Assembly: GCF_003856975.1 (NCBI RefSeq)
Contig: NZ_CP033107.1
Location: forward strand, 806,001-870,000
Source: Plantibacter sp. PA-3-X8
Lineage (GTDB): Bacteria; Actinomycetota; Actinomycetes; Actinomycetales; Microbacteriaceae
Length of the DNA stretch: 64,000 nt
Direction: 5' to 3'
Part shown: piece by piece, positions 11,847-41,605 of the stretch
Position numbering within the stretch: the first letter of the stretch is position 1
Layout: each line of letters begins with the position of its first letter
Translations under genes and position numbers: made by a program
The notes under the pieces: generated by a model
Database searches by the model: none
What the model was told of the DNA's origin: nothing
The model's input: only the letters and a program-made list of their open reading frames with translations

Positions 11847-11876
11847 CCGGCATCCGACCTCCTCGAAAGGAACCTC

Positions 11877-21314: not shown

Positions 21315-21392
21315 TCGGACCGACGAGCTGACACTCCTCTCCATCCCGCACCAACACCCATCCCGCACCATTCACAGAAGAACGGATTCGCT

Positions 21393-22715: not shown

Positions 22716-22722
22716 CAGAACA

Positions 22723-26032: not shown

Positions 26033-26112
26033 CCATCAACTCTCCCATGTCCACTCCGGCAGCGGACGGACGCTGTGAAGAGACAGTTTCAATCAAGTAT
26101 GAACAGTCCGTT

Positions 26113-26164
26113 ACGGAACCGTGACCACCGCGCGTTGACCTGTCACGCGGACACCGGGCATGCT
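26113..26164 (+). promoter_or_regulatory. Candidate promoter/operator of the second sugar ABC operon
   Basis: TTGACC at 26135-26140 could be a -35, followed after 18 bp by a weak CATGCT (26159-26164). Two imperfect dyads surround it: GTTACGG-AA-CCGTGAC around 26109-26124, and TGTC-n5-GACA at 26141-26153. The regulator is not obvious, because the only LacI-like protein of this operon has no DNA-binding domain. Confidence 0.35.
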
Positions 26165-26244
26165 GAACAACACTTGGCCGCTGATAAGAGCGCCGCCGCC
26201 CCAGGAAGCCCCGCGTGCAGCGGAATGCTCCTCACAAGGATGTG

Positions 26245-27153
26245 AGTATGACGACTTCACAGTTAGATACAGTTTCGGACAAACCAAGACGGATGCCGGA
26301 CGGGATGTTCGCGTTCGTCCTCGTCCTCCCGGGGCTCGCGCTCCTGGTGGCGGTCGTCGCCTATCCGCTGCTGACCGCGCTCGTCACGGCGTTCTTCAAG
26401 CAGAGCCTGGTCGTCCCCGGACGCGAGTTCGTCGGACTCCAGAACATCATCGACGTGCTCCAGGGTGACTTCCTCAAGCTGCTCGGGCAGACCATGGTCT
26501 TCACCCTCGGGACGACCATCGCCCCCTTCATCATCGGCTTCGCGCTCGCCCTCGCACTCAACACGCGCATCCGCGGTGCCAAGATGCTGCGCGGACTCAT
26601 GCTGATCCCGTGGCTCGTGCCGGGCGTCGTGGTGTCGTTCCTCTGGATGTGGATCTTCAACGCGAACTACGGGGTGGCGAACGCCGTCCTCGGCCTGTTC
26701 GGGGTCGACGCGCAGGCCTGGCTCGCCCAACCGCAGACGGCGATGTTCGCCGTGATCGTCGCCAAGACCTGGCAGTCCTTCCCGTGGATCATGGTGATGC
26801 TCCTCGCCGGCCTGCAGACCGTGCCACAGGAACTCCATGAGGCGGCCGAGATGGACGGCGCAGGGACCATCCGACGCTTCTTCTCGATCACGGTCCCGCA
26901 GCTGAAGGGCATCATCGGCCTCGTCCTGCTGCTCGAGTTCATCTGGAACTTCCAGCACTTCGACATCATCTACGTTCTGACGGGCGGCGGTCCGGCTGGG
27001 AGCACCCAGACCTTCGCCACCGCCGTGTACGAGACCGCCTTCCGCGGGTTCGACCTCGGCCACGCGGGCGCCCTCGGGCTGCTCTGGCTCATCCTCCTGA
27101 TGGCGCTCGTCGTCGTCTACGTCCGATTCTCGGAGAAAGGCGAGCAGAAATGA
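26245..27153 (+). CDS. Sugar ABC transporter permease (MalF/UgpA type)
   Basis: 302 residues with six hydrophobic segments. The EAA loop reads LHEAAEMDGAGTIRRFFSITVP. TGGGPAGSTQTFATAVYE before the last helix is typical of UgpA/MalF-like permeases. AAGGAT precedes the ATG at 26245. First gene of an operon that continues with a MalG-type permease, a binding protein, a secreted propeller protein and a LacI-like sensor. As in the galactoside operon, no ATPase gene is present. Confidence 0.92.
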   Translation, partial: SMTTSQLDTVSDKPRRMPDGMFAFVLVLPGLALLVAVVAYPLLTALVTAFFKQSLVVPGREFVGLQNIIDVLQGDFLKLLGQTMVFTLGTTIAPFIIGFALALALNTRIRGAKMLRGLMLIPWLVPGVVVSFLWMWIFNANYGVANAVLGLFGVDAQAWLAQPQTAMFAVIVAKTWQSFPWIMVMLLAGLQTVPQELHEAAEMDGAGTIRRFFSITVPQLKGIIGLVLLLEFIWNFQHFDIIYVLTGGGPAGSTQTFATAVYETAFRGFDLGHAGALGLLWLILLMALVVVYVRFSEKGEQK

Positions 27154-28088
27154 GCGTCTCCACCGCACCCCCTGCGCCGCAGGACACCACGCCGGACCCG
27201 CAGCCCCCGTTCGCCGCCACTGAGCTCGGCACGCTCCGGCGTCGTCCGTCGCTCTTCCGATCCGAGAGCCGGGCGGTGCGGATCAGCGCCTGGGTCGCGG
27301 TGATCGTCTGCGGCGGCTTCGGGCTGCTGCCGGTCTACTGGTTGCTGGCGACCTCGCTGACCCCACGGGCCCAGGTCTTCTCGTACCCACCGAAGCTCTT
27401 CCCCACGGAGATCAGCTTCGAGGCCTACACCGCCCTCGCATCGAACCCGGACCTGTTCGGCTACCTGCGGAACAGCATCATCGTGTCCGTCATCACCGCC
27501 CTGCTGTCCGTGATCGTCTCGGCCTACATGGGGTACTCGTTCTCGAAGTTCCGCTACCGCGGCCGTCGATCCCTCATGTACTTCGTGCTCGCCTCGCAGA
27601 TGTTCCCGCAGGCGTTGCTGCTGATCACCCTGTACTCGGTGTTCAGCGCCTACGGACTCCTGAACACCTATGCGGCGCTGGTGCTCTCGTTCACGACGTT
27701 CACCCTGCCGCTGTGCGTCTGGATGCTGAAGGGCTTCTTCGACACGATCCCGGACGAACTCATCGAGGCGGCTCGCGTCGACGGGGCGTCTCGACTGCGG
27801 ATCATCCACTCCATCGTGCTGCCGCTGTCCGCACCCGGCCTGGTCGCCGCGGGCCTGTTCGCCTTCGTCCGCGGGTGGAACGACTTCATCTTCGCGCTCA
27901 CCCTGGCGGGTCCCGACAAGCAGACGCTCCCGCCCGGCCTCGTGAACACCTTCGTCGGCGAGGCCGCCACGGCCTGGCCCGAGCTCATGGCCGCATCGCT
28001 CGTCGTCTCCCTACCCGTGGCGATCGCGTTCATGGCCCTGCAGCGTCACCTCGTCGGCGGACTGACCGCCGGTGCCGTGAAGGGCTGA
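27150..28088 (+). CDS. Sugar ABC transporter permease (MalG type)
   Basis: 312 residues: a cytoplasmic N-terminal tail of about 45 residues, then six hydrophobic segments. The EAA loop is LIEAARVDGASRLRIIHSIVLP and the protein ends GGLTAGAVKG. The ATG overlaps the stop of the partner permease. Together they form an importer for an unknown carbohydrate. Confidence 0.92.
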   Translation: MSVSTAPPAPQDTTPDPQPPFAATELGTLRRRPSLFRSESRAVRISAWVAVIVCGGFGLLPVYWLLATSLTPRAQVFSYPPKLFPTEISFEAYTALASNPDLFGYLRNSIIVSVITALLSVIVSAYMGYSFSKFRYRGRRSLMYFVLASQMFPQALLLITLYSVFSAYGLLNTYAALVLSFTTFTLPLCVWMLKGFFDTIPDELIEAARVDGASRLRIIHSIVLPLSAPGLVAAGLFAFVRGWNDFIFALTLAGPDKQTLPPGLVNTFVGEAATAWPELMAASLVVSLPVAIAFMALQRHLVGGLTAGAVKG

Positions 28089-28183
28089 GCGCAGCACCCC
28101 GAACCGGCCCGCCGCCGGGCCTCCCCACAATCCGTTCCACCAACCCAGACACGTCCCACCAGGATCACGCTCGAGGAGGAGCC

Positions 28184-29518
28184 ATGTCCCACATCACCCC
28201 GTCCTTCGCCACCGCCGCACAGCAGACCGTCATCACCCGCCGCCGCGCCCTGCAGTTCCTCGGCATCGGCGTCGCCGCGGCCACCCTCGCAGGGTGCGCC
28301 CCGACCGGAGGCGCCCCAGGAGCCGGCTCCATCCCGAAGGCGACCGCCGGCGGAACCGCGACCGACTTCGACTTCGCGAGCTGGTCGCTCACCGAGAAGG
28401 CCTCGGCACCGGCCATCCAGAGCCTCCTGCAGAAGTACGAGGGCAAGGCCAAGATCGACGTCGGCGAGGTGTCCTTCCCCTACAACGAGTACATCAACCA
28501 GCTCATGCTGCAGGTGCGCGGCGGGCAGTTCTCCGGCGTCGCCCACGTCGACGTCGCCTGGCTCGGTTCGCTCGCGAGCCTCGGCAAGCTGCAGGACGTG
28601 TCCGGGTTGACCGAAGGACGTGGCTACACGAAGGCGGGACTCACGGCCGCGTCGTTCGACGGCGTGCAGTACGGACTCCCGTGGACGATCGGCGCGATCG
28701 GCCTCGTCACCAACCAGGCGATCCTCGACCAGGCCGGCATCGGCGAGTTCCCCACGACGATCGACGAGTTCGAGGGCTCGCTCAAGCAGCTCAAGGGCCT
28801 CGGCAACGGCATGATCCCCTACGCGGCGTCGACGAAGGCCGCGCAGCTGAAGGACATCCTCATCTGGATGCAGACCTTCGGCAGCCCGCTGGTCGACGGG
28901 GACACCGTCACGATCGGCGACGACGCGAGCATCGAGGCGGTCACCTGGTACAAGAGCCTGTACGACCAGGGCCTCATCGCAGCAGACGTCGACCGCTTCG
29001 ACGCCCGCTCGCTGTTCGCGCAGGGACGCACCGCGATCTACGACGACGCGATCGTCGGACGGAGCGCCGTGACCGGCGAATCGCCCGACCCCGACTTCGC
29101 GAGCAAGCTGCAGCCGGTCTCCCGGCCGGTCCTCAAGCAGGGTGACACGCCGCGTGCGCTCGTGTGGGGCGGGGCGCTCGCCGTCGTCGACGGTCCGGCC
29201 GCCGGCACCGCAGCGGACTTCGCCCAGTGGGTGACGTCCGACCCGGAGACCGTGCTCGAGGACTTCGCCGCCCGTGGTCTGCCGCCGGCGACCGAGGACG
29301 CGCTCAACTCCGACGCCGTGAAGAACGACTCGTTCGCCACGAACTTCAGCGACCGCATCACCAAGACGAGCTCGACCAACCCGTTCTGGAAGTTCGTCCA
29401 GTACTCGCAGATCGAGACGAAGATCGCGGAGAAGGTGCAGGCGGTCCTCGTCGGCCAGGAGCAACCGGCCGAAGCCATGAAGGCCGCCGGGGCGGCCGCG
29501 CAGAAGCTCGTCGGCTGA
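28184..29518 (+). CDS. Sugar-binding lipoprotein with twin-arginine signal
   Basis: 444 residues from an ATG with GAGGAGGAG upstream. The N-terminus has ITRRRALQFLGIG followed by a hydrophobic run and lipobox TLAGC, so it is probably exported by the Tat route and lipid-anchored. The mature part is family 1 solute-binding (FDFASWSLTEKASAPAIQSL, GLPWTIGAIGLVTNQAILD, ALVWGGALAVVDG). It should feed the permeases at 26245-28088. Its close link to the secreted propeller enzyme suggests that enzyme makes the ligand. Confidence 0.92.
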   Translation: MSHITPSFATAAQQTVITRRRALQFLGIGVAAATLAGCAPTGGAPGAGSIPKATAGGTATDFDFASWSLTEKASAPAIQSLLQKYEGKAKIDVGEVSFPYNEYINQLMLQVRGGQFSGVAHVDVAWLGSLASLGKLQDVSGLTEGRGYTKAGLTAASFDGVQYGLPWTIGAIGLVTNQAILDQAGIGEFPTTIDEFEGSLKQLKGLGNGMIPYAASTKAAQLKDILIWMQTFGSPLVDGDTVTIGDDASIEAVTWYKSLYDQGLIAADVDRFDARSLFAQGRTAIYDDAIVGRSAVTGESPDPDFASKLQPVSRPVLKQGDTPRALVWGGALAVVDGPAAGTAADFAQWVTSDPETVLEDFAARGLPPATEDALNSDAVKNDSFATNFSDRITKTSSTNPFWKFVQYSQIETKIAEKVQAVLVGQEQPAEAMKAAGAAAQKLVG

Positions 29519-29564
29519 GCCGCGGATCGACGATCGGACGACTGTGACCGGCACCGGGGGAACC

Positions 29565-31469
29565 ATGCGACGCAGCCCATCGAACACCGTCCGCGCGCTC
29601 GCCGCGGCCGCGCTCACGGTCCTCGCGCTGGGGGTGACGGCGCCGGCGGTCGCCGCCCCCGGAGGACCGGTGCGGAGCGACGAGGGCGGGAGTGCGGTGA
29701 CCGACACGGTCGAGACCGTGCCCGTCACCGTCGACACGTCGAACCAGGCCGGCTGGTGGCGACCGCTCGACGTCGTCGACGGTGTCTCCTACTTCGCCTT
29801 CAACGCGCCGGCGTCCACCGCGTCCAAGCACGAGGTCCACCTGGCCTCGCGGGGCGCGGACGGGACGTGGACCGAAGGGTGCCTGCGCTCGACGGCCGGC
29901 GGTGCCTGCGTGACCTTCACCGACGACAACGGCCACAACCAGCCGTCGATCGTGGTCGACGGCGACGGCATCATCCACGCCTTCGTGTCGATGCACAACG
30001 AGCAGTGGAACGTGTTCCGATCCAGTGCACCCGGCGACGTCACCTCGCTCGTCGAGGCGACGTCGTCCATGCCGGACCTCGACGCGGCGATCACCTATCC
30101 GGTGACGGCGCGCGGGCCGGACGGCGACGCCTGGGTGCTCGTGCGCGTCGGGACGGACACGCAGGGGCGGCGGGAGGGTCGGCTCTACCGGTACGACCTC
30201 GACAGCGGTGTCTGGGAACGTGAGGCGGTGGTCGCCGCGGCGACCGGCTACTCCTTCTACCCCGACGACCTCGAGGTCGACGCCGACGGCCGCGTCCACG
30301 TGCTGTGGGAATGGGGCCCATTCCCGGCGGACCCGGCGCGGCACCTCGGCTCGTACGCGACGTACGACCCGTCCGACGGTTCCTTCGCCGACGTCGCGGG
30401 GACCGCGCTCACCGGACCGATCACCCCGACCACCCCGGGATCCGTCGTCTGGCGCCCCTTCGGTGCCGGTGAGGCCATCGGCAGCTACACGCCGGCGCTG
30501 CAGACCGCGAAGCTCGCCCTCGACGGCACGGAGCTCGCGGGGATCGTCTACCGGTTCGTCGAAGCCGATCAGACCGCGTACGACGTGCGATACACCTCGT
30601 GGGACGGCGGCGCCTGGAGCGACGAGTCACTCATCGACGTCTCCGCGCTCGGTTCGGGCGTCTCGACGGTCGCCGGCATCGATGCGACGAGCGCCGGTGG
30701 TGTCGACCGCGTGTACGCGGTCCTCGCCGTGCAGGTGTGCGGCGAGAACCGCAGCCAGGTGGTCCGACTCGAGCGCGGGGGAGCCGGCTCGGGCTGGGCG
30801 GCTCGTGCGGTGGGTGATCCGGCGGCTGGCCCGCAGCGGCTGCGAGCGGAGACCGCGAGCGGGACGGACGTCCTGTATCTGACGGCACCGGTCAGCGAGA
30901 CCACCCGCGGAACCCTGCGCTGGGCCTCGATCCCCCGCGGCACGTCCGCGGAGACCGGTGGCACGACGCTCGCGGACATCGTGTCCGGGCTCAGAGGCGA
31001 GCTCGGCGGGACGAACGTGGCGCTCGGAGCCACCGTGACGGCCTCCTCCGCGCTCCGCGCCGACACCGGCGGGGCGCTCGCCGTCGACGGCGTGTGCACG
31101 GACGCGAGTCGCTGGATCTCCGCGGTCGGCGACACTGCACCCACGATCACGGCCACCTGGCAGACCCCGACGGCGCTCGCCGAGGTCAGGGTCAAGAGCG
31201 GCTACGCCGGGGGAGCCTCGACCGATTCGGTGCTCCGTGACTTCACGATCGAGGTCCGGACGGGCGGTGCCTGGGTCGAGGTCGGACGGTTCGACGACAA
31301 CACCGCAGGCACCGTCACCGCGTCCGTGGACGGACTCGTGGCCGACGCGGTGCGCCTCCTCATCACCGACCCGTCCGCCTCGGCGACCGACGTCGCGCGG
31401 GTCTTCGAGATCGAGGCGATCGCGGCACCGGCCACCGAATCCGCGAGGAACGACGATGTCCCGGGATAG
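29565..31469 (+). CDS. Secreted BNR-4-type beta-propeller with C-terminal F5/8C-like domain, putative polysaccharide-active enzyme
   Basis: About 634 residues from ATG 29565 with GGGGGAA upstream. A signal peptide (LAAAALTVLALGVTAPAVAA) is followed by a propeller of about 420 residues. The segment NGHNQPSIVVDGDGIIHAF near residues 120-140 matches the BNR-4 family, which includes ulvan-type lyases (PL24/PL25) and GH145-type enzymes acting next to uronic acids; conserved histidines there serve in catalysis. From about residue 480 a discoidin-like carbohydrate-binding domain begins (NVALGATVTASSALRAD). Exact substrate and reaction are unknown; co-location with an importer and deacetylases argues for a decorated polysaccharide. 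Confidence 0.82.
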   Translation: MRRSPSNTVRALAAAALTVLALGVTAPAVAAPGGPVRSDEGGSAVTDTVETVPVTVDTSNQAGWWRPLDVVDGVSYFAFNAPASTASKHEVHLASRGADGTWTEGCLRSTAGGACVTFTDDNGHNQPSIVVDGDGIIHAFVSMHNEQWNVFRSSAPGDVTSLVEATSSMPDLDAAITYPVTARGPDGDAWVLVRVGTDTQGRREGRLYRYDLDSGVWEREAVVAAATGYSFYPDDLEVDADGRVHVLWEWGPFPADPARHLGSYATYDPSDGSFADVAGTALTGPITPTTPGSVVWRPFGAGEAIGSYTPALQTAKLALDGTELAGIVYRFVEADQTAYDVRYTSWDGGAWSDESLIDVSALGSGVSTVAGIDATSAGGVDRVYAVLAVQVCGENRSQVVRLERGGAGSGWAARAVGDPAAGPQRLRAETASGTDVLYLTAPVSETTRGTLRWASIPRGTSAETGGTTLADIVSGLRGELGGTNVALGATVTASSALRADTGGALAVDGVCTDASRWISAVGDTAPTITATWQTPTALAEVRVKSGYAGGASTDSVLRDFTIEVRTGGAWVEVGRFDDNTAGTVTASVDGLVADAVRLLITDPSASATDVARVFEIEAIAAPATESARNDDVPG

Positions 31470-31475
31470 CGTTGT

Positions 31476-31504
31476 GCTCAGTCGGGACCGCAACGGTCCT
31501 GAGC
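31476..31504 (+). other. Intercistronic hairpin before the LacI-like sensor gene
   Basis: GCTCAG...GGACCG and CGGTCC...TGAGC pair with a three-base bulge and a three-base loop (CAA), directly after the stop of the propeller gene. It could attenuate transcription or protect the upstream mRNA, lowering expression of the last gene of the operon. Confidence 0.5.
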
Positions 31505-31542
31505 GGCCGGGATCCACCCGGTCAGCAGTGAGGAGCAGCACC

Positions 31543-32436
31543 ATGTCGGACGCCGCCTTCGGCTCTCAGCGGTCGGCACCGGTACCGCGCCGTTCGCGCA
31601 CGGGCATGGTGGCGCTCGCCGTCCCGAACCTCGACGAACCGTACTTCGCGGAGCTCACGACGCTCCTCGTCCGCGGCGCCGACGAGCGTGGACTGTCGAT
31701 CCTCATCCAGCACACGGAGGGCGACCACGACCGCGAGGTCGACATCGCCAACGGGGTGGGCCTGCCGCTCACGGACGGACTCATCCACATCCCCCGCTCG
31801 CTGACGGTCGGCGACCTCACGCGGCGGACCTCCCCGGGGCCCCTGGTGCTCCTCGGCGAGCACATCCAGGTCAGCCCGTTCACGCACATCTCGATCGACA
31901 ACCGGGCGGCCGCCGACGCCGCGACGACGCACCTCGCCGAGGCCGGCTGCTCCCGTATCGCGTTCATCGGGCCCAGGGACGAACGTCCGTCCGACGCGGC
32001 GGATCAGCGGTACGCCGGGTATCGGGATGTGGTCGCGCGGCTCGAGCTCGCGCAGGAGCCGTCGCTGATCGGGCACGTCGACGCGTTCACCCCCGAAGAG
32101 GGACGTCGCGTGATGCGTCGGATGACCGCCGAGGGCGTCGAGCTCGACGGCGTCGTCTGCTCCAACGACTCGATCGCCTTCGGCGTGCTCGCGGCCCTCC
32201 ACGAAGCCGGCCGACGGGTGCCCGAGGAGGTCGCGGTGATCGGCATCGACGACGTCCACGCCGCCCAGTTCTCGACCCCGTCGCTCACGACGGTCGCTCC
32301 CGACTACGACGCGATCGTGCGCGCGGCCTTCACCGAGCTCGAACGCCAGATCGCCGCCCCGCCCGGAGCCGACACGCCGGTCCGGCACGTGGTCGTCGAC
32401 GCACGGATCGTCGTGCGGGACAGCACGGCGCGCTGA
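31543..32436 (+). CDS. LacI-like sensor protein lacking the DNA-binding domain
   Basis: 297 residues from an ATG with GAGGAG upstream. After about 20 residues it enters the LacI/GalR sugar-binding fold directly (RTGMVALAVPNLDEPYFAEL), with DGLIHIPRSL, DNRAAADAATTHLAEAG, DGVVCSNDSIAFGVLAAL, VAVIGIDDVHAAQ and a C-terminal VVRDSTAR as in normal LacI proteins. The helix-turn-helix and hinge (about 55 residues) are absent, and the 73 bases between it and the preceding gene leave no room for them. It may sense the operon's sugar, form mixed dimers with a full-length repressor, or be a decaying regulator. No signal peptide. Confidence 0.85.
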   Translation: MSDAAFGSQRSAPVPRRSRTGMVALAVPNLDEPYFAELTTLLVRGADERGLSILIQHTEGDHDREVDIANGVGLPLTDGLIHIPRSLTVGDLTRRTSPGPLVLLGEHIQVSPFTHISIDNRAAADAATTHLAEAGCSRIAFIGPRDERPSDAADQRYAGYRDVVARLELAQEPSLIGHVDAFTPEEGRRVMRRMTAEGVELDGVVCSNDSIAFGVLAALHEAGRRVPEEVAVIGIDDVHAAQFSTPSLTTVAPDYDAIVRAAFTELERQIAAPPGADTPVRHVVVDARIVVRDSTAR

Positions 32437-32497
32437 GGTCCGTGAACGGGAGGACAGGCCGGCGTTCCGCTGGCGCGGGGTGCTGGAGGTGTCGCGG

Positions 32498-33319
32498 TCA
32501 GGCGTCCATGCGGTCGTCGTCGGCGGAAGCGGAAGCGACCGGCGCGAGCCAGACCTCGCCGAACTGCGCGCGGAGCGTGGTCTCGACGTCCTCGGCCACG
32601 TCGTCGTCCATCACGAGGTGGTCCACCTCGCGGAGGTCGACGATCGTCGTCAGTCCGACGGCGCCCCACTTCGAGTGGTCGGCGAGGACCACGGAGCGAC
32701 GCCCGGCGCCGACGAACGCCCGGTTGGTCTCGGCCTCGAGGAGGTTCGAGGTCGTCAGCCCCGCCTGCAGGTCGATCCCGCGGACGCCGAGGAAGACGAC
32801 GTCGCAGTGCAGGGACTCGATCGCGCGCACGGCGACCGGGCCGACCAGGGCGTCCGAGGGGGTACGGACGCCGCCGGTCAGCACGACCGTCTGGGTGTAC
32901 GGCTCGTCGGCGCGGTCGGGCCGCGCGAACACGTCGGCCACCGGGAGGGAGTTCGTGACGATGGTGAGCTCCGGGATGGCTCGCAGCTCCTGCGCGAGGG
33001 CCCAGGTGGTGGTCCCGCCGGACAGGCCGACCGACATGCCGGGCTCGACGAGGATGGCCGCGCGTCGGGCGATGGCGCGCTTCTCGGCGAGCAGTCGGCG
33101 TGCCTGGTTGGGAAAGCCCAGCTCGGCACGGTCGGGCAGTCTGGGCGTGGTGGCGCCACCACGGACGCGGTCGACGAGGCCCTCCGTCGCGAGTTGCTCG
33201 ATGTCACGTCGCACGGTCATCTCGCTGACGCCGAGTGCGGTCGCGAGGTCGACGACGCTCGCCGCACCGTTGCGGCGCACCTCCGACATGATCTGCGATC
33301 TGCGTTCCGCACCGAGCAC
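32498..33319 (-). CDS. DeoR-family transcriptional regulator
   Basis: 273 residues from a GTG with GAAGGAGG upstream. The N-terminal helix-turn-helix is ERRSQIMSEVRRNGAASVVD through GVSEMTVRRDIEQL, the DeoR signature. The C-terminal DeoRC domain has GLSGGTTTWALAQEL, TIVTNSLPVADVFA, LTGGVRTPSDALVG and VFLGVRGID, and would bind a phosphorylated sugar. It is divergent from the esterase gene at 33415, with a perfect 13-bp palindrome between them, and is probably autoregulated. Confidence 0.92.
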   Translation of the reverse strand: MLGAERRSQIMSEVRRNGAASVVDLATALGVSEMTVRRDIEQLATEGLVDRVRGGATTPRLPDRAELGFPNQARRLLAEKRAIARRAAILVEPGMSVGLSGGTTTWALAQELRAIPELTIVTNSLPVADVFARPDRADEPYTQTVVLTGGVRTPSDALVGPVAVRAIESLHCDVVFLGVRGIDLQAGLTTSNLLEAETNRAFVGAGRRSVVLADHSKWGAVGLTTIVDLREVDHLVMDDDVAEDVETTLRAQFGEVWLAPVASASADDDRMDA

Positions 33320-33340
33320 AGCGTCCTCCTTCGACCCGGT

Positions 33341-33353
33341 TGCCAGTCTGGCA
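33341..33353. promoter_or_regulatory. Palindromic operator between DeoR and esterase genes
   Basis: TGCCAGTCTGGCA is a perfect palindrome with 6-bp arms around one central base. It lies 22 bases from the GTG of the DeoR gene and 61 bases from the ATG of the esterase gene, a suitable place to control both. Binding by the DeoR protein is inferred from position. Confidence 0.6.
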
Positions 33354-33414
33354 CGCGCGCACGGCGAACCTCGGCACCGGCGATCCACGACGACGAGACG
33401 GAGGCGGACAACGC

Positions 33415-34413
33415 ATGCGTGAGGGACGACATCGGGACTGGTTCGGCGACGAGGTGCGCGACGGCACCTACGGCTACGACCTCGAGGGGCTCCTGGCGGT
33501 CGAACCGGTCGTGCCGCCGGCTGGATTCGAGGAGCTGTGGCGCGGGTGGTACGCGGCGGCACGCGAGGTGTCCCCGGATCCGGTCCTGACCCCGATCGGC
33601 CGGCAGGGTGCGCACGAGGTCTTCGTCGTCGAGCACACGGTCGCCGACGGCCTCCGCCTGCGTGGATGGCTCGCGACGCCGGCGGACGGGCAGGCGCGCT
33701 TCGGGATGGTGCACGGGCACGGCTACGGCGGACGGGACGCACCAGATTGGTCCCGCGTCCCGGACGACGCCGCCGTCATCTTCCCGATCGCCCGCGGTCA
33801 GGGCGTCTTCAACACCGGACTCGGGGCACCGACGCCGGAGGACGGACACGTCCTGTTCGGCATCGACAGCGTCGAGCGGTACGCGCTCGGCCGCTGTGCC
33901 GTCGACCTCTGGCACGCGGCGTCGGCGCTGCTCGACGTCGTCGGACCGCTCCCGCTCTACTTCGTCGGTGAGAGCTTCGGCGGTGGGATCGGCGCGCTCG
34001 CCCTGCCGTGGGACGACCGCTTCGTCGGAGCGACGCTCGTGGTGCCGAGCTTCGGTCAGTACGACGTGCGCCTGCGCCTGCCGTGCGAGGGGAGCGGGGA
34101 GCGGGTGCGACACCACGTCGCCGAGCACCCCGAGGCGCGCGAGGTTCTGCGGTTCTTCGACGCGTCGACGGCCGCGGGGTTCGTCCACGTGCCGGTGCGG
34201 GTGGAGGCCGCGCTCTGGGACGGACACGTGCCACCACCCGGGCAGTTCGCCGTAGCCAACGCGCTCGAGGACCTCGAGCTGAGTGTCCTCCCCGCCGGGC
34301 ACACCGAGTACCCGGGGCTCGAAGCCGTGCTGGAGGAGTCGTACGCGGCGACGAGGGCGCACGCACTCCGGTCGGTCGCGCGGGCGGTGGACGGATCGAC
34401 GATCGAGAGGTGA
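33415..34413 (+). CDS. AXE1-like carbohydrate esterase / alpha-beta hydrolase
   Basis: 332 residues, cytoplasmic. The overall layout follows the acetyl xylan esterase/cephalosporin-C deacetylase group: FEELWRGWYAAAREVSPDP at the N-terminus, VHGHGYGG as the oxyanion region, nucleophile S187 in FVGESFGGG, and a C-terminal histidine in LPAGHTEY. It would remove ester groups, probably acetyl, from imported sugars. It is more divergent than the second AXE1 protein at 40637-41605. The longer frame from 33340 lies over the operator, so ATG 33415 is preferred. Confidence 0.82.
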   Translation: MREGRHRDWFGDEVRDGTYGYDLEGLLAVEPVVPPAGFEELWRGWYAAAREVSPDPVLTPIGRQGAHEVFVVEHTVADGLRLRGWLATPADGQARFGMVHGHGYGGRDAPDWSRVPDDAAVIFPIARGQGVFNTGLGAPTPEDGHVLFGIDSVERYALGRCAVDLWHAASALLDVVGPLPLYFVGESFGGGIGALALPWDDRFVGATLVVPSFGQYDVRLRLPCEGSGERVRHHVAEHPEAREVLRFFDASTAAGFVHVPVRVEAALWDGHVPPPGQFAVANALEDLELSVLPAGHTEYPGLEAVLEESYAATRAHALRSVARAVDGSTIER

Positions 34414-34425
34414 GAGGGTGGACGG

Positions 34426-34947
34426 ATGATCGCTGCGCTCACGCTCCCCGCCACCCTCACCACGCCAGGACAGGAGCTACTGCTGCGCCGGGCCACCCTC
34501 GCCGACCTCGATGCGCTGATGGCGCTCCTCGCAGACGACCCGATCAGCGCGTCCCGTGGTGACCAGGCCCAGGAGAGCGACCTCCCCGCCTACGAGCGTG
34601 CGCTCGCGGACCTCATCGACGATCCGGCGAACGAGATCCTGCTGGTCGTCGACGCGGCGGACGCCGTCATCGCGACGATGCAGCTGACCCGCATCCCCGG
34701 GATGGCCCGTCGCGGCTCGACACGGCTGCTGGTCGAAGCGGTGCGTGTGTCCTCGAGCCTGCGATCCGGCGGCGTCGGAACGGCCATGATGCGCTGGGTG
34801 ACGGACATCGCCGCTCCGACGACCGGTTCGTCGATCGTGCAGTTGACCTCCGACGAGGCCCGGGTCGACGCCCACCGCTTCTACGAACGCCTCGGCTTCG
34901 TCGGCTCGCACCGCGGCTTCAAGTACGCCGTGACGGCCGTGAGCTGA
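34426..34947 (+). CDS. GNAT-family N-acetyltransferase
   Basis: 173 residues with the GNAT fold: LLLRRATLADLDALMALLAD at the N-terminus, acetyl-CoA loop VSSSLRSGGVGTAMM (the Q/RxxGxG/A site) and a C-terminal AHRFYERLGFVGSHRGFKY. GAGAGGGTGG precedes the ATG. It follows the esterase gene by 12 bases and is probably co-transcribed. Acceptor unknown. Confidence 0.9.
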   Translation: MIAALTLPATLTTPGQELLLRRATLADLDALMALLADDPISASRGDQAQESDLPAYERALADLIDDPANEILLVVDAADAVIATMQLTRIPGMARRGSTRLLVEAVRVSSSLRSGGVGTAMMRWVTDIAAPTTGSSIVQLTSDEARVDAHRFYERLGFVGSHRGFKYAVTAVS

Positions 34948-34948
34948 C

Positions 34949-35368
34949 ATGGAGTTCGTCCGCACACTCGCCCGCTGGCTCCTCGGAGCCGTCCTCACCT
35001 TCGCCGGCGTCGGCCACCTCACCTTCGCGCGGCAGTCGTTCGTCGCCCAGGCGCCGCAGTGGTTGCCCCTGCCGGTCGACGTGGTCGTCGTTGCGTCGGG
35101 AGTCGTCGAGATCCTGCTCGGCCTCTCGCTGATCCTGCTCGCCCGGTACCGCGTCGCCGTCGGCTGGATCGTCGCCGCCTTCTTCGTCGCCGTCTTCCCC
35201 GGCAACCTCGAGCAGTTCGTCCGCGGAACCGACGCCTTCGGGTTGGACAGCGACATCGCCCGTGCCGTCCGCCTGGTCTTCCAGCCCGTCCTCGTCCTCT
35301 GGGCCCTGTGGTCCACCGGTGCCTGGCGCGCGTGGCGGTCGCGGCGCCGCCGGAACACGACGCGCTGA
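34949..35368 (+). CDS. DoxX-like small membrane protein
   Basis: 139 residues with four hydrophobic segments: LLGAVLTFAGVGHLTF, VVVVASGVVEILLGLSLILL, VGWIVAAFFVAVFPGNLEQF and VRLVFQPVLVLWALW. The first helix with FAGVGHLTFA and the NxxQF after helix 3 match DoxX-type proteins of actinobacteria. Role unknown; redox or thiol stress has been proposed for relatives. It starts one base after the GNAT stop. Confidence 0.82.
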   Translation: MEFVRTLARWLLGAVLTFAGVGHLTFARQSFVAQAPQWLPLPVDVVVVASGVVEILLGLSLILLARYRVAVGWIVAAFFVAVFPGNLEQFVRGTDAFGLDSDIARAVRLVFQPVLVLWALWSTGAWRAWRSRRRRNTTR

Positions 35369-35454
35369 GCGCGATCGCTAGGACGCCTAGTCATCTCGCC
35401 CGGGTGCCTGTCAAGGGGCCCTGGTTCGCAGCATCCGTCCGGCAGGGTTGATCC

Positions 35455-35829
35455 ATGCGATGCATTACCTATGCCGGCGAGAACGTCGTGACGACCGACG
35501 AGGTCGCGCAGCTCCTGGTCGAACTGACGGCGGAACTGGCCAAGCGCGGCCGTGCCGAGGCCGTCACCATCCCGATCGTGGTCGAGTCCGACGGCGATGA
35601 GGACGGGCCGGCGTCCGCGCAGCTCGTCATCGGCCTCGGCAACGACGTCCTCTCGGTGCCCCACAGCTGGACCGACGAGGTCCCCGACTTCAGTGAGGGA
35701 CGAGACCGCCTGCAGGGCTACCTCGACGACATCCGCCCGTCAACGACGGCCTACGAGCCGCGCGACTCCATCGAGACCACGGACGTGCTCGAAGACCCTG
35801 ACCTCGACCTGCGCGACTTCACCCGCTGA
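35455..35829 (+). CDS. Hypothetical protein, Imm1-like size
   Basis: 124 residues, acidic and soluble. It starts MRCITYAGENVVTTDEVAQL and has a strand-rich middle (VTIPIVVESDGDEDGPASAQLVIGLG) followed by VLSVPHSW. The layout is reminiscent of Imm1-family immunity proteins of actinobacteria, but I cannot confirm that. No toxin gene is near. The ribosome binding site is weak (CAGGGTT). A strong terminator follows. Confidence 0.65.
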   Translation: MRCITYAGENVVTTDEVAQLLVELTAELAKRGRAEAVTIPIVVESDGDEDGPASAQLVIGLGNDVLSVPHSWTDEVPDFSEGRDRLQGYLDDIRPSTTAYEPRDSIETTDVLEDPDLDLRDFTR

Positions 35830-35846
35830 GTCGTCCCTGAACGACG

Positions 35847-35881
35847 ACGCCGGCGTCGACCCCTCGGGTCGACGCCGGCGT
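35847..35881. terminator. Strong bidirectional terminator
   Basis: ACGCCGGCGTCGACCC and GGGTCGACGCCGGCGT form a perfect 16-bp stem with loop CTC, followed by TCGTTCG. It lies between convergent genes ending at 35829 and 35896. Confidence 0.9.
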
Positions 35882-35895
35882 TCGTTCGGGTCCGC

Positions 35896-37245
35896 TCAGC
35901 GCGGGAGCGGCAGCTTGGCCGTCTCGCGGGCCCGCAGCACGACGATCAACGTGATGAGCGCCGCCGCCATCACGTAGAACGCGGGCGCGAACCGGTTGCC
36001 CGTCGAGGCGATCAGGAACGTCGCGAAGTAGGGTGTGATCCCACCGAACACGGCGACCGACAGGTTGTACGCGATCGCCATCGAGCCGTAACGGATACTG
36101 GTCGGGAACAGCTCGGCCATCGCAGCACTCGACGCACCGTCGTACGCCGCCATGAAGACGCCGAGGATCACCATCGCGACAGCAGCGGCGGCGAAGTTGC
36201 CCGCACTCATGAGCATGAGCGTCGGATACGTCAACACCAGGAACCCGACGCAACCGGCGATCATCACGGGCTTCCGTCCGATGCGGTCGCTCAGCAGGCC
36301 CATGAAGGGTACGAGGATCGCGATCGCGAGCAGCCCGAGCACCGTGACCCCGTAGCTGAGCGGCTGCGAGTAGCCGAGGTCGGTCTGCAGGTACGACGGC
36401 ATGAAGGTCTGCAGGATCCAGTGGCCGACCGCCTTGATCACGACGAAGCCGACGCAGAAGAGCAGCGCCTTCCACGAGGTCCGCAACGACGTGCGCAGCG
36501 GTGACTTCGAGACGGCCCCCTTCGCTTGGATCGCCTGGAACTCCGGGGTGTCCTCGAGCTTGTTCCGCAGGTAGAGGCCGGCGAGGCCGAGTGGCAGGGC
36601 GAGGAAGAAGAGGGCGCGCCAACCCCACTCGTTGAGGGCGTCCGTGCCGAGTGTGGAGGTGAAGAGGAGGACGAGACCTGCCCCGACCACGAAGGCCGCG
36701 AAGCCGAACACGTCGATGAAGCTCGTCACGAAGCCGCGTCGGTTGGACGGGGCGTACTCGGCGAGGAGCGTCGTGGCGCCGGAGCTCTCGCCGCCGGCGG
36801 CGAAGCCCTGCACGAGCCGCACGATGACGAGCAGGATCGGCGCCCAGAGGCCGATGAGGTCGAACGTCGGTAGCAGACCCATCACGACCGTCGCCCCGGA
36901 GGTCACGAGGATCACCGTCGCGAGGACCGTCTTGCGCCCGATGCGGTCGCCGAGCGAGCCCCAGAAGAGGCCACCGAGGGGGCGCATCACGAAGCCGGCG
37001 CCGAACACCGCGAACGCGGACAGGAGGGCCGCCTGCGTGTTGCCCTGCTGGAAGAAGTTGAGGCTGATGACCGTCGCGAGCGTGCCGTACAGACCGAAGT
37101 CGAACCATTCGACGAAGTGTCCGGCCCCCGCGGCCCAGATGACCTTCCGCATCCGGCGTGATCGCTCAGCGTCGTCGTAGGGGGTCTGCGCACTGTGCGC
37201 GGCGGCTTCGGCCAGGGCTGTGGCCTGGGTCCTGCTCTCGTCCAT
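35896..37245 (-). CDS. MFS transporter, metabolite:H+ symporter (MHS) family
   Basis: 449 residues, twelve hydrophobic segments. Hallmarks: AAGAGHFVEWFDFGLYGTLA at the start, GGLFWGSLGDRIGRKT in loop 2-3, RLVQGFAAGGESSGATT in helix 4, and LLSDRIGRKPVM in loop 8-9. Relatives carry proline/betaine, alpha-ketoglutarate, shikimate or uronates. Divergence from the FAD oxidoreductase gene across a shared control region suggests it imports that enzyme's substrate. GAGG lies just before the ATG. Confidence 0.92.
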   Translation of the reverse strand: MDESRTQATALAEAAAHSAQTPYDDAERSRRMRKVIWAAGAGHFVEWFDFGLYGTLATVISLNFFQQGNTQAALLSAFAVFGAGFVMRPLGGLFWGSLGDRIGRKTVLATVILVTSGATVVMGLLPTFDLIGLWAPILLVIVRLVQGFAAGGESSGATTLLAEYAPSNRRGFVTSFIDVFGFAAFVVGAGLVLLFTSTLGTDALNEWGWRALFFLALPLGLAGLYLRNKLEDTPEFQAIQAKGAVSKSPLRTSLRTSWKALLFCVGFVVIKAVGHWILQTFMPSYLQTDLGYSQPLSYGVTVLGLLAIAILVPFMGLLSDRIGRKPVMIAGCVGFLVLTYPTLMLMSAGNFAAAAVAMVILGVFMAAYDGASSAAMAELFPTSIRYGSMAIAYNLSVAVFGGITPYFATFLIASTGNRFAPAFYVMAAALITLIVVLRARETAKLPLPR

Positions 37246-37300
37246 CGGTCCTCACATCGTTGTCGGGGTGCTTCGAGGTTCACCTGCCGAAGAATCTTAC

Positions 37301-37332
37301 CCACTGAATGGGAAAGTCGTACCGCTGAATGG
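37301..37332. promoter_or_regulatory. Tandem 11-bp operator half-repeats, probable IclR sites
   Basis: CCACTGAATGG at 37301-37311 and CCGCTGAATGG at 37322-37332 are direct repeats spaced exactly 21 bp, two helical turns. Each is also partly palindromic. They sit between the divergent MHS transporter and FAD oxidoreductase genes. The IclR protein at 39810-40592 is the natural candidate; IclR proteins often bind as dimers of dimers. Confidence 0.65.
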
Positions 37333-37407
37333 TAGCGTGGCAACCGTCCGGTGGTCGACACGTGTCCGAAGGCTTCCAGGATCACGCATCACGAAGGAGT
37401 GTCTCCC

Positions 37408-39756
37408 ATGCAGCACCGCACCCAGTCCGCCGACGTCGTCGTCATCGGCGGTGGTCTCGCGGGGGTCTCGGCCGCCGTCGCGGCCGCCCGTCTCGGCTCC
37501 CGGGTCTCGCTCGTCACGAACCGGCCGGTGCTCGGTGGCAACTCGTCGAGCGAGGTGCGGGTGTGGGTCGTCGGAGCGACCGCGCACGGGCACCAGCGGT
37601 TCGCGCGGGAGACCGGCATCATGGGGGAGCTCTTCCTCGAGAACCAGTACCGCAACCCGGAGGGCAACCCGTTCTACTGGGACCAGACGGTCCTCGACCT
37701 CGTACGGGCCGAGCCGAACCTGCAGCTGCACCTCAACACCGACGTCCGCATCGTCACGATGGCGGAGGGCGCTGAGGGCGTGGTGTCGCCGACACCGAGG
37801 ATCGCGTCCGTCACCGGATGGACGATGGGCAGCGAGATCGAGACGGAGTTCGTCGCACCCGTCTTCATCGACTGCACCGGAGACGGGCTGGTGGGGCATC
37901 TCGCGGGCGCGACTTCCCGCATCGGGCGCGAGGGCCGCGCTGAGCTCGGCGAGCCGTGGGCGCCCGAGGTCGCGGACGACGAGCTCCTCGGCAGTTCGAT
38001 CTTCTTCTACACGAAGGACACGGGACGCCCCGAGCGGTTCGTCGCCCCCGACATCGCGCGCGACATCCGCGACACCCCGATCCTCACCAACCGGATCATC
38101 CGGACCGGCGACAACGGCTGCAACTACTGGTGGATCGAGTGGGGCGGCGAGCTCGACACCGTCGCCGAGAACGAGCAGATCCGCGACGAGCTGTGGAGCG
38201 TCGTCTTCGGGATCTGGGACTACATCAAGAACTCCGGCGAGTTCGACGCCGACACCCTGACGCTCGAGTGGGTCGGATCGATCCCGGGGAAGCGCGAGTA
38301 CCGGCGGCTGCTGGGTGACCACACCCTCACGCAGAACGACCTGCTCGACCAGGTCGACTTCGAGGACACGGTCGCCTTCGGTGGCTGGTCGATCGACCTG
38401 CACCCGGTTGAGGGCGTCTACGCCGAGACCGCCGGCGCGCAGCAGCGGTTCAGCAACGGCACCTACGGGATCCCCTTCCGCAGCCTGTACTCGCACGACG
38501 TCGACAACCTGCTGTTCGCCGGACGCAACATCTCCGCCTCCCACGTCGCGTTCGGGTCCACCCGCGTCATGGCGACCTGCGCGACGCAGGGTCAGGCGGT
38601 GGGGACGGCCGCGGCGCTCATCGCCCGCCATGGACTGACGCCGCGGGAGCTCGCCGGGCAGGCGCTCCCGCTCCTGCAGCGCACGCTCCTGCGCGAGGAC
38701 GCCCCGGTCATCGGCATCACCACGGACGACCCCGACGATCTGGCCGGGCGGGCGACGGTCTCCGCTTCGAGCGCGCTCGACACCATCTCCACGCTGGAGC
38801 ACCTCGGCTCCGGCGAGCGGTTCGCCCTCGACCGCGACGTCGCGATCCTCGTGCCCGTCGCCCCGACACTCGACCGGATAACCCTGCTCGTCGACGCCGC
38901 GAGCGACACCACCCTCCGGGTCGAACTGTGGAGCGCGGGCAAGCGGCAGAACGCCGTCCCCGTCGAGCACCTCCTCGACGGCACGGCCGACGTCACCGCC
39001 GGGGTGGGCGTGCCCGCCACCGTCCGCTTCGGATGGACGCCCGAGATCGAGCAGAACGCCGTGCTCGTCGTCCGCGCCAACCCGGACGTCAGCCTGCTCC
39101 TCACCGAGGGCCACCCTTACGGGCTCCTCATCCTGACGGCCAAGCACGCGACCGACGAGGTGTTCGACGACCACATCCCCGAGGAGCAGGACCAGGCGAT
39201 CCTCGACTGGAACGCTCGGAAGCTCCGCGGCCGGAGCGTCGCGCTGACCGTCGGCGGGGAGACCACGGCGTACCGGCCTGAGCGGATCGTCGACGGGTAC
39301 CAGCGCCCCTACGGCGGACCGCACCTGTGGTCCTCGGCGCGGCTCCAGGACAACCGCGACCTGATCACCGAGCCCGAGGTCCTCACCCTGCACTGGGATG
39401 AGCCGGTCGATGTCGCGTCCGTCCGGATCGTGTTCAACGACGACGTCGACGTGGACCTCATCAACCTGCACCACCACCGCACGGACTTCGAGGCGGTGCC
39501 GGAGCTCGTCGCCGCGTACCGCCTCGAGGCACGACCGGCGGGTGCTCCTGAGGGGACGTGGACGGTGTTGGTCGAGGTCGAGGGGAACCGGCACCGGCAT
39601 CGGATCCACGACGTCGAACCCGTGCGGGTCGACGCCCTCCGTGTCGTCGTCACGGCCACGAACGGGTCGCCCTACGTGAGCGTCGCGAGTGTGAAGCTCT
39701 TCGAGCAGCCGAGCGGGCGCACCACCCGGCCGCGCCGAGCCCGACCGCTACGCTGA
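37408..39756 (+). CDS. FAD-dependent oxidoreductase with C-terminal carbohydrate-module-like domain
   Basis: 782 residues from ATG 37408, with AAGGAG eight bases upstream. The N-terminal FAD-binding fold begins DVVVIGGGLAGVSAAVAAAR, followed by the RPVLGGNSSSEVRVW motif of the FAD_oxidored (PF12831-type) group often found in polysaccharide loci. FAGRNISASHVAFGSTRVMATC closes the FAD site near residue 390. From about residue 440 to the end are strand-rich domains, the last (VDVASVRIVFNDDVD...ALRVVVTATNGS) resembling an F5/8-type-C module. No signal peptide. Relatives have no well-established reaction; sugar or uronate oxidation is a reasonable guess. Confidence 0.83.
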   Translation: MQHRTQSADVVVIGGGLAGVSAAVAAARLGSRVSLVTNRPVLGGNSSSEVRVWVVGATAHGHQRFARETGIMGELFLENQYRNPEGNPFYWDQTVLDLVRAEPNLQLHLNTDVRIVTMAEGAEGVVSPTPRIASVTGWTMGSEIETEFVAPVFIDCTGDGLVGHLAGATSRIGREGRAELGEPWAPEVADDELLGSSIFFYTKDTGRPERFVAPDIARDIRDTPILTNRIIRTGDNGCNYWWIEWGGELDTVAENEQIRDELWSVVFGIWDYIKNSGEFDADTLTLEWVGSIPGKREYRRLLGDHTLTQNDLLDQVDFEDTVAFGGWSIDLHPVEGVYAETAGAQQRFSNGTYGIPFRSLYSHDVDNLLFAGRNISASHVAFGSTRVMATCATQGQAVGTAAALIARHGLTPRELAGQALPLLQRTLLREDAPVIGITTDDPDDLAGRATVSASSALDTISTLEHLGSGERFALDRDVAILVPVAPTLDRITLLVDAASDTTLRVELWSAGKRQNAVPVEHLLDGTADVTAGVGVPATVRFGWTPEIEQNAVLVVRANPDVSLLLTEGHPYGLLILTAKHATDEVFDDHIPEEQDQAILDWNARKLRGRSVALTVGGETTAYRPERIVDGYQRPYGGPHLWSSARLQDNRDLITEPEVLTLHWDEPVDVASVRIVFNDDVDVDLINLHHHRTDFEAVPELVAAYRLEARPAGAPEGTWTVLVEVEGNRHRHRIHDVEPVRVDALRVVVTATNGSPYVSVASVKLFEQPSGRTTRPRRARPLR

Positions 39757-39809
39757 ACACGGCCTCCGAGGCCGGACATCCGAACCGACACCGACACCGT
39801 GGAGGACCC

Positions 39810-40592
39810 GTGGCAGGTGAGATCCAGCAGGGCATCGGCCGTGCAGCATCCGTGCTCGCCGTTCTCGGCGCATCGACCACCGGACCGTTGCGGGCCTCCG
39901 ACATCGCCCGTGCGACCGGTCTCGGCACCTCGACGACCGCACGCCTCCTCGGCACGCTCGAGGAGCTCGGCTATGTGACGAAGGCGCCCGACAGTCCGTC
40001 CTACGCCATCGGCGCGACCATCCTGGCGCTGGCGAGCGAGGGGCTCAACCAGAACCCGGTGCACCGGGAGTCGCGTGCTCCCGCTCAGGAACTCGCACAG
40101 CGGATCGGCCTCAGCGTGAACGTCGGCGTGCTCGACGGCTCGAGCCTCATCTACCTCTGCCACTTCGAGGGAGCCCTCGCCCCGAAGTCGCACTCGATGA
40201 TCGGGTTGCGCCAGCCGTTGCACGCTTCCGCGCTCGGCAAGTGTCTGCTCCTCGACCTCGACGCCGACGGCCTCCGTGCGCTGCTGGGAGATGAGCCGCT
40301 CCCGCGCTACACGGCCAACACCGTCACGGAGCACGCGGCTCTTGCCGCCGAGCTCGCGACGGCGCGGGAACGCGGCGTCTGCATGGAGGACCAGGAGCTC
40401 GCGTTGGGTCGTCTCGGGATCGCGGCGCCGATCCGCGACGCGAACGCCAGAGTCGTGGCGGCGATCTCCATCTCGGGTCGGCTGAGCCTGATGCGAGAGC
40501 GCAACCTCGACGTCCTCACCGAGGACCTCATCGAGGTGGCCGACCGCATCAGCGTCGGTCTCGGCCTCATCTCCGCGATCCCCTCCTCCTGA
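39810..40592 (+). CDS. IclR-family transcriptional regulator
   Basis: 260 residues from a GTG with GGAGG upstream. Winged helix-turn-helix at residues 7-65 (GIGRAASVLAVLGAS, RASDIARATGLGTSTTARLL), then the IclR ligand domain (SVNVGVLDGSSLIYLCHFEG, QPLHASALGKCLLLDL, CMEDQELALGRLGIAAPI). It follows the FAD oxidoreductase by 53 bases and precedes the esterase, so it is embedded in the unit it likely controls. It probably binds the tandem repeats at 37301-37332 and responds to an aromatic or sugar acid. Confidence 0.93.
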   Translation: MAGEIQQGIGRAASVLAVLGASTTGPLRASDIARATGLGTSTTARLLGTLEELGYVTKAPDSPSYAIGATILALASEGLNQNPVHRESRAPAQELAQRIGLSVNVGVLDGSSLIYLCHFEGALAPKSHSMIGLRQPLHASALGKCLLLDLDADGLRALLGDEPLPRYTANTVTEHAALAAELATARERGVCMEDQELALGRLGIAAPIRDANARVVAAISISGRLSLMRERNLDVLTEDLIEVADRISVGLGLISAIPSS

Positions 40593-40636
40593 CCTCTTCC
40601 CCACCCGTATCCGATCTCACGAACCGAAGGTGACCC

Positions 40637-41605
40637 GTGGCGCAATTCGACCTGCCCCTCGCCCAGCTCCAGCAGTACCTGCCCGACCGCGAGGAGGCGC
40701 CGGACTTCGACGCGTTCTGGACGGACACCCTCGCCGAAGCCCACGCCCTCGCGCAGCCGACGGTGCGTGAACGATCCAACCCTGAGCTGACGGGTCTCGT
40801 CGTCGAGGACGTCACGTTCTCCGGGTTCGGTGGCGACCCGATCAAGGGGTGGTTCATCCGACCGGCCGGCGCGACCGAGCCGCTCCCGTGCATCGTGCAC
40901 TACATCGGCTACAGCGGCGGTCGTGGGCTCGCCCACCAGTGGACGATGCACCCGTCCGCGGGCTACGCGGTGTTCGTCATGGACACGCGCGGCCAGGGGA
41001 GCGCGAACCTGCCGGGCGCGACGGCCGACCCGTTCGGGAGCGGTCCGCAGGTCGCCGGGAAGATGAGCGCCGGGCTCGGCAGCCCCGAGACCTACTACTA
41101 CCGTCGGGTCTTCACGGATGCGGCACTCGCCGTCGACGTGGTGCGCAGCTTCCCGGAGGTCGACCCCGCCCGGGTCGTCGTCGCCGGTGGCAGCCAGGGT
41201 GGCGGCATCGCGCTCGCCGCGGCCGGACTCTGCGAGGGACTCGCGGCGGCGCTCGTCGACGTCCCGTTCCTGTCGCACTTCCGTCGTGCCCTGCAGATCA
41301 CCGACGCGAGCCCCTTCGCGGAGCTGAAGACGTACCTCATCAGCCGACGCGGCCACGAGGAGGAGGTGTTCCGGACGCTCTCGTACTTCGACGCGACGAA
41401 CTTCGCCGCCCGCGCGACCGCCCCCGCGCTGTTCTCCGTCGCGCTCTGCGACGCGGTGTGTCCGCCCTCGACGGTGTACGCGGCGTTCAACCACTACGCG
41501 GGCACGCAGAAGGACATCGCCGTCTATCCGTACAACGGGCACGAGGGTGGCGGGCCGGTGCAGCAGCAGGCTCAGCTGAGCTTCCTCGCGGACCTCCTCG
41601 CCTGA
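40637..41605 (+). CDS. Acetyl xylan esterase / cephalosporin-C deacetylase (CE7, AXE1 family)
   Basis: 322 residues, the usual CE7 length. N-terminus FDLPLAQLQQYLPDREEAPDFDAFW matches the family; the oxyanion region is YIGYSGGRG; the RGQGSANLPG motif is present; the catalytic triad is S186 in GGSQGGG, D272 in ALCDAVCPPST and H302 in YNGHEGG. These cytoplasmic hexameric enzymes deacetylate small acetylated sugars after uptake. Presence here suggests the locus handles an acetylated oligosaccharide. Start is a GTG; AAGGTG lies nearby upstream. Confidence 0.94.
   Translation: MAQFDLPLAQLQQYLPDREEAPDFDAFWTDTLAEAHALAQPTVRERSNPELTGLVVEDVTFSGFGGDPIKGWFIRPAGATEPLPCIVHYIGYSGGRGLAHQWTMHPSAGYAVFVMDTRGQGSANLPGATADPFGSGPQVAGKMSAGLGSPETYYYRRVFTDAALAVDVVRSFPEVDPARVVVAGGSQGGGIALAAAGLCEGLAAALVDVPFLSHFRRALQITDASPFAELKTYLISRRGHEEEVFRTLSYFDATNFAARATAPALFSVALCDAVCPPSTVYAAFNHYAGTQKDIAVYPYNGHEGGGPVQQQAQLSFLADLLA

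Follow-up and report, generated by a model that had tools for sequence, protein, structure and literature searches.

Do neighbouring genes for a sugar importer, a secreted propeller protein and a flavin enzyme serve one pathway in the plant-associated bacterium Plantibacter sp. PA-3-X8? We addressed this question for a locus at positions 26,245 to 41,605 of a 64,000-nucleotide stretch of this genome (4.08 Mb, one contig), referred to here as the window (contig NZ_CP033107.1, positions 806,001 to 870,000). Genes for an ATP-binding cassette (ABC) sugar importer, a BNR-4 propeller, two putative deacetylases, an MHS-type transporter, a flavin adenine dinucleotide (FAD)-dependent oxidoreductase and regulators of the LacI, DeoR and IclR families lie close together there, and an earlier interpretation made from the DNA letters (the sequence-only reading) put them forward as a candidate single joint polysaccharide locus. 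Our data indicate that the Plantibacter locus is a composite of two modules, and that members of the two gene groups are linked in other genera. We give a probability of roughly 0.5 to the reading that these genes encode a modular carbohydrate-catabolic system of propeller lyase, import, cytoplasmic deacetylation and flavin oxidation. In such a system the secreted BNR-4 propeller, predicted to be seven-bladed, with its carbohydrate-binding-like tail would cleave a rhamnose- or uronate-type linkage by beta-elimination, using a double histidine and a neutralising arginine of the PL42/PL24 type. The ABC importer or the MHS symporter would then take up a small, probably acetylated sugar or sugar acid, CE7-type esterases would strip its acetyl groups in the cytoplasm, and the cytoplasmic FAD enzyme would perform the first oxidation, with the substrate sensed by DeoR together with a LacI protein that lacks its DNA-binding head (headless LacI), and by IclR.

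The gene content described by the sequence-only reading was borne out, since each named gene is a long open reading frame (ORF) that shows the third-position GC signal expected and matches a Pfam or NCBIfam family, and the FAD enzyme is exactly 782 residues long (Table 1). We found that DNA similarity to genomes G004, G005 and G006 (blastn) breaks at about position 26049 and returns at about 34400-34427. The intervening block of approximately 8.4 kb, module A, holds two ABC permease genes (P1 and P2), the gene for their solute-binding protein (SBP), the propeller, headless LacI and DeoR genes, and the esterase gene AXEa. Module A is a discrete presence/absence block carried by four of the seven Plantibacter genomes, the window genome counted, while module B (MHS, FAD, IclR and the esterase AXEb) is present in all seven. 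A GNAT gene and two small ORFs are the few generic genes that interrupt the locus, as had been stated earlier, and their order is the same in Plantibacter genomes whether or not these carry module A. Since G006, the nearest genome by its FAD enzyme, lacks module A as well as further upstream sequence, the presence of module A does not simply track relatedness.

These observations raise the possibility of two unrelated neighbouring pathways, in which an ABC/propeller glycan module was inserted beside an old MHS/FAD/IclR organic-acid module. An indel missing from three of seven genomes, next to a module that is found with its bystanders in all seven, speaks for this explanation; the window FAD enzyme also falls in an MHS-associated clade, and module B occurs without module A in Curtobacterium, Glycomyces and Cellulomonas. 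Gene neighbourhoods in other genera argue against it: there the propeller is joined with FAD or with MHS and IclR, ABC genes are joined with FAD and IclR, and in G039 the two esterase genes adjoin after the propeller and FAD genes. We therefore regard unrelated pathways as possible and on the whole unlikely. The claim of a single joint locus holds in so far as the groups are linked in other genera, and it fails for Plantibacter itself, where the locus is a composite, module A is absent from three genomes and the FAD enzyme belongs with MHS-associated relatives.

The linkage in other genera rests on 16 propeller loci: four from Plantibacter, those of G039, G467, G772, G776 and G777, and seven from a class-level sample. 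The overlapping search samples comprised 398 family (Microbacteriaceae), 396 order and 394 class genomes and four genomes of the genus of G039; the large-group searches used drawn samples with few candidates scored per genome, and absences there are soft. A propeller match was present in 17 of the 398 family genomes (full-length in five, tail-only or weak and partial in the others), in two order genomes (one being the window genome), in one of four in the genus of G039, in eight class genomes (window genome included) and in four of 18 genomes of the genus of G772, G776 and G777. Genes that ORF calling had missed in lower-GC loci were recovered by tblastn (FAD in L088/L106, DeoR in L063 and L164, P1 in L067). 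Within 12.5 kb of the propeller, the ABC trio was found at 13 of the 16 loci, IclR at 11, a FAD enzyme of at least 50% identity at 10, headless LacI and AXEa at nine each, DeoR at eight (nine with tblastn), MHS and AXEb at six each, and a GH36 gene at four.

The order P1-P2-SBP-propeller-FAD-headless LacI-DeoR (minus strand)-AXEa is shared by G039, G467, G772, G776 and G777, which represent two other genera. The G039 cluster also contains AXEb, next to AXEa, and the propeller match of G772 has an in-frame stop, leaving a called ORF of 477 amino acids. With G1108, where FAD lies near the propeller just beyond the ABC genes, FAD is beside or near the propeller in six of the 12 loci outside Plantibacter; G242 and G197 have the same cluster order without a propeller. 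A second arrangement is seen in G970 and G1126, where an MHS gene (61% identical) and the propeller are followed by IclR. Genes for SDR, DapA and an enolase-type (MR_MLE) protein are divergent there, and G970 additionally carries a lactonase-type gene (SMP-30). These SDR, DapA and MR_MLE genes recur in G950, where they accompany the ABC trio, the propeller and IclR. The sequence-only reading had named the staying together of the two gene groups as its test, and they do so by propeller and FAD in these six genomes and by propeller, MHS and IclR in G970 and G1126. A clustered importer, secreted glycan-active enzyme and regulator thus recur elsewhere, as is asked of a Gram-positive polysaccharide-utilisation locus.

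We examined the phylogeny of the FAD enzyme with a tree built from 41 selected rows, each labelled with its gene neighbourhood. In this tree, 13 rows lie together on one side of a branch (100/100) and form an MHS clade (clade B); the ABC clade (clade A) comprises 12 rows and has four propeller-type clusters as its sister. MHS is present in all 13 rows of clade B, and ABC genes lie upstream of FAD in the 12 rows of clade A. Salinibacterium sp. PAMC 21357 (L088/L106), which stands outside the tree, has an ABC trio in the place of MHS, opposite FAD (66% identity) and IclR (64%), and its ABC genes are 69, 70 and 51% identical to P1, P2 and SBP. We take this as evidence that ABC and MHS importers may serve one pathway. 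MHS-type carriers transport small organic acids; since the ABC genes stand where MHS stands, the imported molecule would be small. The BNR-4 tree pairs Plantibacter with G039 (100/99), and the g93 genomes join this pair (98/97). The propeller clusters of G039 and the g93 genomes contain FAD, so it is simplest to suppose that an in-cluster FAD gene was lost from the Plantibacter block, which now adjoins another FAD gene of that family.

We asked whether the propeller has the residues of a lyase. In a profile search against PDB, its best match was 5muk (BT3686-type chains, E 1.2e-18); FoRham1 reached E 3e-6, the tail matched CBM32-type domains, and no PL24 or PL25 structure was among the 16 chains at E<=1. 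FoRham1 is described as an L-rhamnose-alpha-1,4-D-glucuronate lyase of PL42 (formerly GH145), with a His85/His105/Asp83 triad, Arg166 as neutraliser and Arg220 fixing the glucuronate ring (PMC8377490, PMC10951650). We mapped residues from printed alignments to FoRham1, with a numbering offset of two derived in this analysis, and counted 13 BNR-4 homologues after three of 16 aligned rows were excluded as other proteins sharing the tail alone. H124, H144, Y178, R194 and Y232 of the propeller align with His85, His105, Tyr150, Arg166 and Tyr202 of FoRham1 and are invariant in all 13 homologues, so that the double histidine and neutralising arginine of PL42 are represented by H124, H144 and R194. 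Two sites differ from FoRham1: that of Asp83 is N122 in the propeller (N, S, I or L across the homologues, never Asp) and that of Arg220 is G251 (G, H or A, never Arg). An invariant D121 one residue before the Asp83 site could stand in for Asp83, and an invariant R259 lies eight residues past the Arg220 site. Since the five catalytic-type residues are kept and these two sites are changed, we expect lyase chemistry and do not file the propeller in PL42, its nearest family, from which it also differs by low similarity to FoRham1 and an extra F5/8C tail. The best reading is that it is probably a secreted lyase of a new subfamily. The sequence-only reading had expected it to place with PL24, PL25 and GH145-like enzymes; the kinship with PL42 and its lyase-type residues stood, while the ulvan lyases of PL24 and PL25, described as sharing the propeller fold and the His-His-Asp/Arg catalytic group with PL42, gave no match. 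A second BNR_4 gene in the genome (G000:C1:3765981-3766496; L002, L077; 34.4 bits against a Pfam cut-off of 27.3) lies in another sugar-transport neighbourhood.

The propeller could instead act as a hydrolase, such as an alpha-L-rhamnosidase of the BT3686 kind, or serve as a lectin. BT3686 is reported to retain the lyase residues while hydrolysing at its other face (PMC8377490), and the alignable stretch of the propeller does not take in the posterior-face catalytic His48 of BT3686. The best structural match is of the BT3686 type, the sole NCBIfam match is the BT3686 alpha-L-rhamnosidase model NF052497 (42.3 bits, under its cut-off of 700), and the aligned sites lack counterparts of Asp83 and Arg220. 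Set against these points are the invariance of the lyase-face residues and, in G980, a GH88-type hydrolase gene directly downstream of the propeller homologue; GH88-type hydrolases typically act on lyase products. We judge a hydrolase or lectin to be improbable.

Both putative deacetylases match PF05448, as had been claimed, and are unlike each other: AXEb is a clear member of the CE7 cephalosporin-C/acetyl-xylan esterases by the AXE1 profile and CE7 structures, while AXEa, whose PDB matches are exclusively CE7 (best E 5e-7), is a distant relative. Neither has an evident signal peptide by inspection, and they would thus work on imported material. The MHS-type transporter is likewise a relative of its family model, scoring 384.4 bits against TIGR00883, under the cut-off of 443. 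The FAD enzyme is a member of PF12831; its C-terminal approximately 350 residues gave no confident Pfam match, with weak F5/8C hints in relatives, and the matches listed in a search of solved structures contained nothing past the N-terminal Rossmann motif.

Does the FAD enzyme carry out the first oxidation, or is it an oxidoreductase of general use for glycans or cofactors that many carbohydrate loci have recruited? The genes that adjoin its relatives are varied. By inspection, distant relatives in Bacteroidota and other phyla (L133, L138, L141, L142, L144) begin with an RR-type (Tat-like) sequence that the Actinomycetes enzymes lack; these relatives may be exported and work beyond the cytoplasm. 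In G950, SDR, dehydratase and aldolase genes lie by the propeller, and two FAD copies are present at other sites of the genome. These features would suit a general oxidoreductase. Transporter, FAD and regulator nevertheless form a closed unit in all 13 rows of clade B, ABC genes lie ahead of FAD in the 12 rows of clade A, and no full-length FAD gene occurs anywhere in the genomes of G970 and G1126, which have SDR, MR_MLE and DapA genes near the propeller. A general role therefore seems to us rather doubtful. A strict FAD-or-SDR exclusion was dropped, since the G950 genome has both.

Several observations, together with the two changed propeller sites, weigh against a single modular system. Near-full-length FAD (at least 54% identity) was found in 30 of the 398 family genomes (any match at E<=0.001 in 227, many of them short), and 25 of these 30 lack the propeller, which is full-length in the other five. 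In six of the seven propeller loci from the class-level sample, the 20 kb retrieved contained no FAD gene; G950, G942 and G897 have full-length FAD genes at other genome sites. The window FAD lies in the MHS clade, apart from the propeller-cluster clade. Finally, FAD relatives adjoin GH2, GH31-like, GH38, GH42, GH78 and GH95 genes, from which no single substrate follows.

Neighbouring genes nevertheless give clues to the substrate. A PF05426 lyase gene adjoins FAD in four Microbacterium loci (two by Pfam, two by 90-95% identity), and a heparinase II/III-like gene lies beside the G772 cluster. GH78 genes lie close to FAD in G252 and in one Humibacter genome (L066/L127), and the G980 locus contains GH78 as well. 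The G1108 locus has a GH29 gene, and three Lentisphaeria-type records show GH95-type genes close to relatives of the FAD enzyme. These clues, which carry no background rate and stand next to GH2, GH31-like, GH36, GH38 and GH42 genes, appear to point to rhamnose/fucose- and uronate-containing glycans. For the imported molecule we tentatively prefer either a 6-deoxysugar or a uronate; a single substrate (gum arabic, rhamnogalacturonan I, a 6-deoxyhexose or a uronate) was not adopted from the neighbours because the neighbouring enzymes vary.

Regulation offers a further point of comparison. As the sequence-only reading had it, headless LacI gave no helix-turn-helix (HTH) match in the Pfam search. 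Its orthologues (71-78% identity) start at the same place, and in G039 and G467 approximately 89 bases separate the stop of the preceding gene from this start, a gap too short to encode an HTH domain; the absence of the head is therefore conserved. The headless LacI and DeoR pair is kept in every FAD-containing propeller cluster checked, G1108 excepted, and this conserved regulatory arrangement is open to direct testing. A search for operators upstream of P1 and AXEa (palindromes and shared 9-mers) returned GC-rich words and nothing conserved; a single palindrome, located 64 bases before the called start of P1 and present in both Plantibacter sequences examined, was not used. The 6-deoxyhexose operon of Campylobacter jejuni reportedly has SDR and MFS genes. 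In the passages describing this operon, fucR-cj0481 to cj0490, it is repressed by an IclR protein whose gene lies beside a dapA-type gene, as in G950, G970 and G1126, where IclR lies with DapA and SDR at the propeller locus; those passages name no propeller, FAD enzyme or ABC importer (PMC12566272).

The locus is built from known families; the literature searched describes neither their combination nor the flavin step. Full-text search of open-licence PMC returned no relevant paper on the FAD/lyase/esterase/Microbacteriaceae combination, in keeping with the sequence-only reading, to which it matched no familiar locus, and no function in print for PF12831 FAD_oxidored. A bolder proposal, which we hold only tentatively and think less likely than its opposite, is that the BNR-4 proteins are a new family of rhamnosyl/uronosyl-linkage lyases and the FAD enzyme an undescribed flavin sugar or sugar-acid dehydrogenase replacing the NAD-dependent SDR/lactonase/dehydratase/aldolase route, all within a single modular pathway of Actinomycetes that can use ABC or MHS importers interchangeably and has DeoR with headless LacI in place of IclR. 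If the modular system proposed here is real, it would give a testable function to PF12831 flavin enzymes with a carbohydrate-binding-like tail, which recur in glycan loci of several phyla, and Actinomycetes of soil and plants would join the known bearers of propeller lyases of the PL42 type.

Table 1. Features of the locus, in window coordinates.
Feature	Position	Strand	Basis or remark
Module A block	about 26050-34410		blastn breakpoints against G004, G005, G006; gene order
ABC sugar permease P1 (BPD_transp_1)	26248-27153	+	PF00528 E 2.5e-19; in-frame GTG start at 26215
ABC sugar permease P2 (BPD_transp_1)	27150-28088	+	PF00528 E 6.9e-19
SBP, sugar-binding lipoprotein (SBP_bac_8)	28184-29518	+	PF13416 E 1.5e-29
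Secreted BNR-4 propeller, PL42-like, C-terminal F5_F8_type_C (CBM32-like), putative lyase	29565-31469	+	PF15892 (BNR_4), aa 86-355, E 1e-32; signal peptide by inspection
Headless LacI, ligand-binding domain alone	about 31546-32436, exact start uncertain	+	PF13377 E 7e-37
DeoR-family repressor	32498-33331	-	PF00455 and PF08220
AXEa, divergent CE7-like esterase	33412-34413	+	PF05448 E 5.3e-11 (weak)
GNAT	34426-34947	+	family match; bystander stretch 34426-35829
Two small ORFs	34949-35368, 35455-35829	+	no Pfam match; bystanders
MHS-type MFS transporter	35896-37245	-	PF00083 and PF07690
FAD-dependent oxidoreductase (FAD_oxidored), 782 aa	37408-39756	+	PF12831, aa 9-420, E 7e-91
IclR-family regulator	39804-40592	+	PF01614 and PF09339
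AXEb, CE7 acetyl esterase	40637-41605	+	PF05448 E 3.4e-103; 1vlq E 2.6e-114

Other genes of the window lie on either side of the locus. Just upstream is a galactoside operon (17498-24825) with GH42, two permeases, a solute-binding protein and GH36, and a LacI gene at 16324-17346; its GH36 is 48-49% identical to the GH36 directly preceding the propeller cluster in G776 and G777. A hexuronate-type module at 7873-13118 contains a mannitol-dehydrogenase-family gene, a zinc dehydrogenase, a second MFS transporter and the D-mannonate dehydratase ManD (673 bits against an NCBIfam cut-off of 550). Downstream, an endonuclease/exonuclease/phosphatase-family gene (42947-43759) recurs near FAD genes in Curtobacterium loci, at 36-45% identity.

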